A stretch of DNA of 64,000 nt. It comes from Pseudomonadota bacterium. GTDB lineage: Bacteria; Pseudomonadota; Alphaproteobacteria; Rhodobacterales; Rhodobacteraceae. Position 1 is the stretch's first letter; every line of letters begins with the position of its first letter. The stretch spans positions 62,001 through 126,000 of the forward strand of contig JAIUPD010000003.1 in assembly GCA_020161615.1 (NCBI GenBank), given 5' to 3'. The notes beneath the pieces were generated by a model. The model was not told where the DNA came from. It searched no databases and worked only from the letters and a program-made list of their open reading frames with translations. Both the position numbers and the translations under genes were made by a program. Below, piece by piece: positions 59,957 through 61,916 of this stretch.

Positions 59957-60661
<705 letters not shown>

Positions 60662-60792: not shown

Positions 60793-60807
60793 GTTCATGT
60801 TATGTTC
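60793..60807. promoter_or_regulatory. SOS box (GTTC-N7-GTTC), predicted LexA site
   Basis: GTTC at 60793-60796 and GTTC at 60804-60807 are separated by exactly seven bases, the LexA site known from Rhodobacter and other alphaproteobacteria. It ends 11 bases before the start codon of the radical SAM gene, so bound LexA would block its transcription. The surrounding bases are AT-rich. I saw no second copy in the promoters I inspected. Confidence 0.72.
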
Positions 60808-60818
60808 AAGTTTGATTC

Positions 60819-61916
60819 ATGCCGCCCCGCATCCCGCCCCTGCCCCCGACCGATCCCGCCCTGCGCGCCCCCGCGCGGGGCACCCTGGCCCAGCCCACCC
60901 CGCGCTACGACCGCGAGGCGCGGGAATGGGAGCATGACGGCTGGGACCTGCCCGAGGAGGAGCATCTGCGCCGGCGCGAGGTCAGCGTCGAACGCCCCCG
61001 GTCGGTCATCGCCTGGAACCAGTCGCCCGACCTGGGCTTCGACCGGGCGGTGAATTCCTATCGCGGTTGCGAACATGGCTGCATCTATTGCTATGCGAGG
61101 CCGAGCCATGCCTATCTGGGCCTCTCGCCGGGTCTCGATTTCGAGACGAAGCTGGTGGCGCGGCCCGATGCCGCCCGGGTTCTGGAAAAGGAGCTGGGGC
61201 GCAAATCCTATGTCGTGCGGCCGATGGGGCTGGGCACCAACACCGATCCCTGGCAGCCGATCGAGGCGCAATACCGCGTCACCCGATCCGTGCTGGAGGT
61301 GCTGTGGAACTGGCGCCATCCGGTCAGCATCACCACCCGGGGCGCCCTGATCGAGCGCGACCTCGACCTGTTGGGCGCGCTGGCGGCCGAGGGGCTGACC
61401 GAGGTCGGGATCAGCGTGACGACGCTGGATGCGGGGCTGGCCCGGGCGATGGAGCCGCGCGCGCCCAGCCCGGCCCGGCGGCTGGCGATGATCCGGGCGC
61501 TCAGCGGCGCGGGCGTGCCCGTCAGGCTGATGATGGGGCCGGTGATCCCGGGGCTGACGGATCACGAGATCGAGGCGCTGATGGAAGCGGGGCGCGAGGC
61601 GGGGGCGCGCACCGCCTGGTACGCGCTGCTCAGGCTGCCGCTCGAGGTCTCGCCGCTCTTTCAGGACTGGCTGGCGCGGCACCGGCCGAACCATGCGGGC
61701 AAGGTGATGAAACTGCTGCGCGAGATGCGGGGCGGGCGCGACAACGATCCCGATTTCCACAGCCGGTTCCGGGGCGAAGGGCCCTATGCCGATCTGCTCC
61801 GCGCCCGGGTCGTCGCCGCGCGGCGCCGTCTGGGCTATGCCCAGCGCCTGCCCGCGCTGGATTGCGGCAAGTTCCGCCCGCCGCCGCGGCCGGGCGATCA
61901 GCTGAGCCTGTTCTAA
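60819..61916 (+). CDS. PA0069/Rv2578c-family radical SAM protein, SplB-like
   Basis: The 365-residue protein has the radical SAM 4Fe-4S motif C84-x3-C88-x2-C91 (RGCEHGCIYCYARP), then GLGTNTDPWQPIE, SITTRGALIERDLDLL and GVPVRLMMGPVIPGLTD of the SplB-like (spore photoproduct lyase) group. It ends with QLSLF (residues 361-365), the consensus pentapeptide that binds the replication sliding clamp. With an SOS box at its promoter it is probably a DNA-damage enzyme; its reaction is unknown. No clear Shine-Dalgarno is visible. Confidence 0.88.
   Translation: MPPRIPPLPPTDPALRAPARGTLAQPTPRYDREAREWEHDGWDLPEEEHLRRREVSVERPRSVIAWNQSPDLGFDRAVNSYRGCEHGCIYCYARPSHAYLGLSPGLDFETKLVARPDAARVLEKELGRKSYVVRPMGLGTNTDPWQPIEAQYRVTRSVLEVLWNWRHPVSITTRGALIERDLDLLGALAAEGLTEVGISVTTLDAGLARAMEPRAPSPARRLAMIRALSGAGVPVRLMMGPVIPGLTDHEIEALMEAGREAGARTAWYALLRLPLEVSPLFQDWLARHRPNHAGKVMKLLREMRGGRDNDPDFHSRFRGEGPYADLLRARVVAARRRLGYAQRLPALDCGKFRPPPRPGDQLSLF

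Follow-up and report, generated by a model that had tools for sequence, protein, structure and literature searches.

The window, by which we mean the whole stretch of 64,000 nucleotides analysed here, carries a gene for a radical SAM protein that is preceded by a candidate LexA operator and ends in a pentapeptide resembling the ligands of the beta sliding clamp (Table 1). In an NCBIfam profile search the product exceeds the 360-bit cut-off of NF033668 (PA0069 family radical SAM protein, a model of the "hypoth_equivalog" class) with 459.7 bits (5.6e-138), its residues 20-365 falling on profile positions 3-348, and Pfam Radical_SAM (PF04055) is matched at 8.6e-16. The CxxxCxxC motif to which an earlier note on this DNA had drawn attention is present as C84-x3-C88-x2-C91, each position being Cys in 114/114 proteins of alignment A1. 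By domain and motif the protein belongs to the radical SAM enzymes, with [4Fe-4S] binding and SAM cleavage as predicted properties. To the PA0069 family, of which it is a member and which was found above cut-off in 171/398 sampled Pseudomonadota genomes, the present work adds an operator and a reading of the tail as a clamp ligand.

Table 1. Positions of the gene and of its observed and predicted features in the window
Feature	Positions	Strand	Basis
Candidate -35 element TTGAAA	60784..60789	+	putative; read from sequence
Predicted LexA operator GTTCATGTTATGTTC in promoter spacer	60793..60807	+	sequence, conserved in relatives
Weak candidate -10 element AAGTTT	60808..60813	+	putative; position only
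PA0069-family radical SAM protein, 365 aa	60819..61916	+	NF033668 and Pfam Radical_SAM
CxxxCxxC [4Fe-4S] cluster motif C84, C88, C91 (CEHGCIYC)	61068..61091	+	alignment
T-N-T-D-P-W-Q-P-I-E loop, residues 140-149	61236..61265	+	alignment; T140 at SPL-like Cys position
Variable linker, residues 340-360	61836..61898	+	pairwise identity, length variation
QLSLF, predicted beta-clamp-binding peptide	61899..61913 (stop 61914-61916)	+	alignment, Pol IV likeness

The comparisons draw on 110 related loci, namely the best-scoring 30 from a genome survey and 80 from a second search. Those termed alpha (105) comprise the survey's same-class loci and the second-search loci, minus five titled otherwise, and retain two with odd titles (L065, Enemella; L102, Mycobacterium). 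The non-alpha sample was hand-picked (38 of the 65 matching "same phylum" genomes), and evidence from Actinomycetota and Gemmatimonadota consists of five plasmid-collection records (L182, L183, L185, L187 and L188). For alignment A1 the 155 proteins were reduced to 114 by the removal of 38 near-identical sequences, two short ones (L084, L095) and L184. The counts given below do not represent independent events, because sampling was best-scoring or by hand, near-identical sequences occur among the loci, and L011 and L071 are the identical contig.

The neighbours of the gene in the window presumably encode a corrinoid protein, a small lipoprotein and a luciferase-like oxidoreductase, the first of these lying upstream on the reverse strand (59957-60661). 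An upstream cluster whose representative has an acidic start resembling that of the 59957-60661 gene recurs in 27/110 loci, so that local gene order seems conserved, with no evident link to repair. Downstream, an open frame falls in a cluster represented by an RNase HII in 51/110 loci, a count made at cluster level with only the representative identified (L118:2899-3951, PF01351). A functional link between RNase HII and the PA0069-family gene at the replication fork is conceivable.

The probable LexA operator and its counterparts in other lineages

The box GTTCATGTTATGTTC, of the form GTTC-N7-GTTC, ends 11 bases before the ATG at 60819, exactly as the earlier note had placed it. A single box of this kind proves little, since the bare pattern is common both in the window (3 matches against 1.07 expected, and at least 3 in 10/100 shuffles) and in the genome (102 sites against 62 for the reversed control pattern), a frequency that would suit a chance match devoid of regulatory role. 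Conservation argues otherwise. A box lies upstream in 103/103 alpha loci with 300 bases of upstream sequence (L084 and L093, with less, were dropped, L093 nevertheless having a box), at a density of 3.37 per kb upstream versus 0.020 per kb elsewhere (9 sites in 447,844 bases); the reversed pattern has 5 sites in the upstream stretches. Boxes of the same type occur in the window genome 39 nt before lexA and 2 nt before an ImuB-like gene, and 94 nt separate a further one from the recA match that follows it.

The placement of the box is equally regular among 36 Rhodobacteraceae-type loci, picked by title and aligned on the box itself, where it takes up the spacer that separates a -35 element of the TTG type from a -10 of the form TA...T. 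T-T-G is commonest at positions -8 to -6 of the box (29, 20 and 26 of the 36), the pattern T15-A16...T20 marks the -10 (26, 30 and 25 of the 36), and an in-frame ATG follows the box by 11-14 nt in 32/36. In the window gene the TTG-type -35 lies one base further upstream than in these relatives, and the -10 agrees with theirs in position, its own sequence being weak. Both the spacer geometry and the short distance to the ATG make this look like an operator embedded in a promoter that yields a nearly leaderless message.

Other lineages keep the gene under different operators, each of which we take to be the LexA type of its own lineage. Among 44 non-alpha Pseudomonadota loci, 24 have CTGT-N8-ACAG, 2 have TTAG-N6-TACTA, none has the alpha type, and 18 have none of these. 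The CTGT type is confined to upstream sequence in these loci (24 sites in 19,994 upstream bases, 0 in 80,144 bases elsewhere), and was seen in 0/105 alpha loci. Of four actinobacterial relatives, two (L185, L188) carry an exact GAAC-N4-GTTC upstream, and L182 and L187 show near-matches only, recognised by eye. The statement in the earlier note that the mycobacterial Rv2578c has been listed near LexA boxes found no confirmation in the literature covered. Retention of the gene across lineages, with the site exchanged for whichever LexA type is local, argues strongly for SOS control in many of them. A fortuitous box is scarcely credible against this background, and was rejected on its conservation in all 103 alpha loci together with its replacement by another operator type in 26/44 non-alpha Pseudomonadota loci. 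A promoter operator of the lineage-specific type, retained among orthologues, marks this gene as a likely member of the LexA regulon, and induction by DNA damage is predicted for the window gene, which is almost certainly under SOS control with LexA as its probable repressor. The SOS control proposed in the earlier note is thus borne out by the operator retained throughout the alpha loci; that note had held that absence of tail and box from close orthologues would tell against its proposal, and both proved to be conserved.

The 18 loci lacking these patterns imply either that some lineages do without SOS control of the gene or that the operator there is of an unrecognised kind. The tail is retained in all 18, with Q..LF terminal or one residue short of the end, which makes it the more constant feature of the two. 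Two of them with betaproteobacterial titles (L073, L117) have neither a CTGT nor a GTTC-N7 site and carry upstream instead GAAC-N4-GTTC, a type otherwise met here in Actinomycetota. Several non-alpha proteins (L147, L149, L155, L162-L164, L169) end in QGSLF or QGELF, their genes being without the CTGT, TTAG and GTTC-N7 patterns; others (L145, L146, L152, L172, L180) have Gly at the same tail position and yet possess a box, so that a weaker tail need not go with a missing box.

The C-terminal pentapeptide

The consensus QL[SD]LF is a clamp-binding motif, and QLSLF does constitute the last five residues of the window protein, as had been reported. Among 155 proteins (the window protein and 154 from the loci), Q..L[FLI] is strictly terminal in 139, lies within 9 residues of the end in a further 11, and is missing in 5. 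In A1, Q361 is one of 21 invariant columns, Q..L[FLI] is present in 110/114 and the narrower Q[LM].L[FLI] in 84/114. The preceding segment behaves quite differently: mean pairwise identity is 0.33 over residues 340-360 versus 0.66 in the pentapeptide, and the linker from F352 to Q361 ranges from 5 to 26 residues. Such endings are uncommon in the surrounding DNA: in the 110 loci, none of the 1162 other open frames of at least 150 codons, a count that takes in shadow frames, ends in Q..L[FL]. The strict QLxLF-stop DNA pattern occurs at 3 places in the 4.87 Mb genome, as against 6 for its reversed control; 2 of the 3 are real stops, those of the window gene and of DinB/DNA polymerase IV (L139), a clamp-binding translesion polymerase. 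Both proteins end in the identical QLSLF, although the domain of the polymerase is unrelated to that of the window protein. The genome has a single match to DnaN.

A motif of the QL[SD]LF type in a flexible, variable context is what characterizes clients of the beta clamp, and there is accordingly a strong probability, judged from sequence, that the QLSLF tail binds the clamp. The peptide might instead pack against the enzyme core or bind some other partner, as a short helix at residues 360-363 of the predicted structure could suggest (a model of the single protein). We think this improbable, given the low confidence of the tail block in that model (62, where 299/365 residues reach 90 or more), the variable length of the linker, the identical peptide in Pol IV and the occurrence of such a tail in a second radical SAM family, described below.

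The tail extends beyond NF033668. The Rv2578c family (NF038135, Actinomycetota) is a sister family with 36-41% identity to the window protein over matched parts; the latter scores 214.8 bits against a cut-off of 430, and so lies outside it. L182 and L185 pass this cut-off, and L187 and L188 were reached from L185 by tblastn. All four records end in a related peptide (QLTLL, QLRLL, QESLF or QEPLF), the type of LexA site being a further difference from the window gene. The clamp-type tail pointed out in the earlier note is thus conserved in Pseudomonadota and in these four actinobacterial relatives.

Relation to spore photoproduct lyase and to a second radical SAM family

The solved fold closest to the predicted structure is that of spore photoproduct lyase (SPL, or SplB; PDB 4FHC, 4K9R, 4RH0), which provides the top six matches in Foldseek and VIA, in line with the kinship of fold that had been noticed at the outset. 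The two share the CxxxCxxC cluster and a D-P...E loop, but identity is only 13-17% and the fourth Cys of SPL is not conserved in the window family. Sequence searches of the PDB brought up nothing beyond weak or spurious hits (UVR8, SkfB, NifB and others), and the SPL models TIGR04070 and TIGR03886 showed no match to the window protein at E 0.001. In the loop, D143 and Q146 are each present in 114/114 proteins of A1, while position 140 is occupied by T (72), I (13), A (8), V (8), S (7) or G (6) and by Cys in 0/114. The corresponding loop in the SPL-like loci L209-L211 (253-281 bits, below the TIGR04070 cut-off of 400) reads S-C-Y-[TA]-D-P-L-[GA]-I-E. This correspondence was anchored by eye on the D-P of those loci; the hhalign profile comparison covered residues 159-284 only, at 78%, and did not align this part. 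We take Cys140 of SPL to be its hydrogen donor; as the position is never Cys in the window family, the chemistry may differ. On the predicted model, the likeness to SPL is one of common fold, which does not of itself imply common function.

A true SPL drafted into the SOS response, repairing 5-thyminyl-5,6-dihydrothymine or ordinary pyrimidine dimers by SPL chemistry, would account for the structural matches, for the retained D-P...E loop and for the weak contacts of remote relatives (L182, L183, L184) with SPL models (1.6e-5 to 2.2e-4). The usual SPL lesion is the spore photoproduct, which forms in spore DNA, and to our knowledge alphaproteobacteria make no such spores. We set this explanation aside as quite unlikely on the lack of any SPL model match to the window protein and on the absence of Cys from the SPL position in all 114 proteins; it is the reading assumed in 2012, when the product was called a predicted photolyase in the available text of that report (PMC3323433).

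The tail also separates the families, being absent from all eight SPL-type proteins compared (L201-L205, above the TIGR03886 cut-off, and L209-L211, below that of TIGR04070; the weak TIGR03886 matches L206-L208 were not counted as SPL type). It is likewise absent from six distant relatives (L184, L190-L194, L189 having been left out for its frame breaks), among which L190 ends in EQLGF, a partial likeness. We therefore rejected the idea that the superfamily as a whole carries the tail.

The same pairing of LexA-type box and clamp-like tail is found in TIGR03916 (rSAM_link_UDG), which we take to be COG4277, an SOS-linked radical SAM family separate in sequence from PA0069. In the best-scoring 35 loci, which are not a random draw (L195-L200, L212-L240), a LexA-type site lies near the start in 33 (30 of the alpha type, 3 of the CTGT type), and a clamp-like peptide stands at the end or within 6 residues of it in 30 (exactly terminal in 21), the five misses ending in QLGFGF or QLSLAL. 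TIGR03916 was above cut-off in 6/41 genomes of the taxonomic family and 52/299 of the phylum, and is absent from the window genome. One of the two TIGR03916 proteins scanned has a weak match to the helix-hairpin-helix, a DNA-binding motif (26.4 bits, cut-off 27), and the name of the family refers to a uracil-DNA-glycosylase partner. SOS control of the COG1573-COG4277 pair is already published, according to the available text (PMC8565304). The tail of TIGR03916 was not met in print, in searches that paired radical SAM proteins with the clamp.

Proposed role, earlier reports and distant relatives

These observations suggest a scheme in which LexA would occupy the operator in the promoter spacer until DNA damage removed it, releasing a message that, from the geometry in relatives, is probably leaderless and starts at about the ATG. 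The product, predicted to fold as a partial barrel of the radical SAM kind and closest among solved structures to SPL, would cleave SAM to a 5'-deoxyadenosyl radical able to abstract hydrogen from a damaged base, and its flexible tail would dock in the pocket of DnaN that Pol IV also occupies, and would so bring the enzyme to lesion-bearing forks or gaps. As the loop that bears the hydrogen-donor Cys in SPL is conserved without the Cys, either the lesion or the route of radical quenching is probably unlike that of SPL. The reaction we favor is one that directly reverses, or opens, a base that is crosslinked or bulky.

We consider SOS control very likely, recruitment by the clamp likely, and chemistry on DNA lesions plausible. 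In finer terms, that the window protein acts on DNA is quite probable, and the conjunction of LexA repression, clamp binding and action on DNA in one enzyme, as read from the sequence features, is on balance probable; these confidences are not independent, a clamp client being the more likely to act on DNA. Whether the reaction would be direct reversal of a lesion, as opposed to some other modification, we judge to be evenly poised. A radical SAM enzyme modifying a non-lesion target, such as a repair protein, a tRNA or normal bases that mark damage, with the clamp serving tolerance or signalling, is a less likely account, given that SPL is matched clearly better than the families with such targets, and that TIGR03916, with the same tail, has the weak helix-hairpin-helix match and the glycosylase-partner name. 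There is perhaps an even prospect that PA0069/Rv2578c and TIGR03916, as two separate families, represent a class of SOS-induced, clamp-tethered radical SAM enzymes that reverse lesions other than the spore photoproduct. We know of only one bacterial DNA lesion directly reversed by radical SAM chemistry, in spores. If the proposal is correct, radical chemistry on DNA would be a general part of the damage response directed to sites of replication, and the existence of a class would place such chemistry on damaged bases at the fork, alongside the translesion polymerases.

The regulatory part of this proposal has precedents. LexA control of splB was predicted in alpha- and beta-proteobacteria in 2012 (PMC3323433) and extended, for splB/COG1533, to Bacteroidetes in 2021 (PMC8565304), so that the word "undescribed", as the earlier note applied it to the enzyme, finds no support in that form. 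As far as the available text of these reports indicates, the genes are probably the same as those treated here, SOS control was predicted from LexA sites, and the product is described as a photolyase or as a radical SAM protein of DNA repair; neither main text contains the words clamp or dnaN. In the available portions of other sources, SplB-like genes are reported in operons with ImuB-C genes (PMC3765255), an S. venezuelae radical SAM gene is listed in a LexA regulon table (PMC9380542), and a P. fluorescens gene labelled SplB changed in level after polyphenol treatment (PMC5435343). The literature covered, in which subscription papers and preprints were mostly out of scope so that absence is not established, yielded no link between radical SAM proteins and clamp binding. 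As far as these searches show, the clamp-type tail and its presence in two radical SAM families are new, as are, over the same literature, the missing SPL cysteine and the geometry of an operator within the spacer. The 2012 paper, in its available text, raised the question of what an SOS-regulated "SplB" does outside spores (PMC3323433); that role can now be put to direct test, since from the tail one can predict where the protein acts, what it binds and which mutation should separate its functions.

Phage relatives are distant, 0 of 6 records covering 80% of the query. On the Runella slithyformis plasmid pRUNSL02, typed as conjugative (L184), a tailless, distant relative of the radical SAM type (1887-2735) directly precedes a gene whose annotated product has a UvrD-helicase domain (2732 onward), and distant relatives on Haladaptatus and Nostoc plasmids (L194:103-2442 and L192:338-2400) adjoin genes annotated as three-Cys-motif partner protein TcmP.
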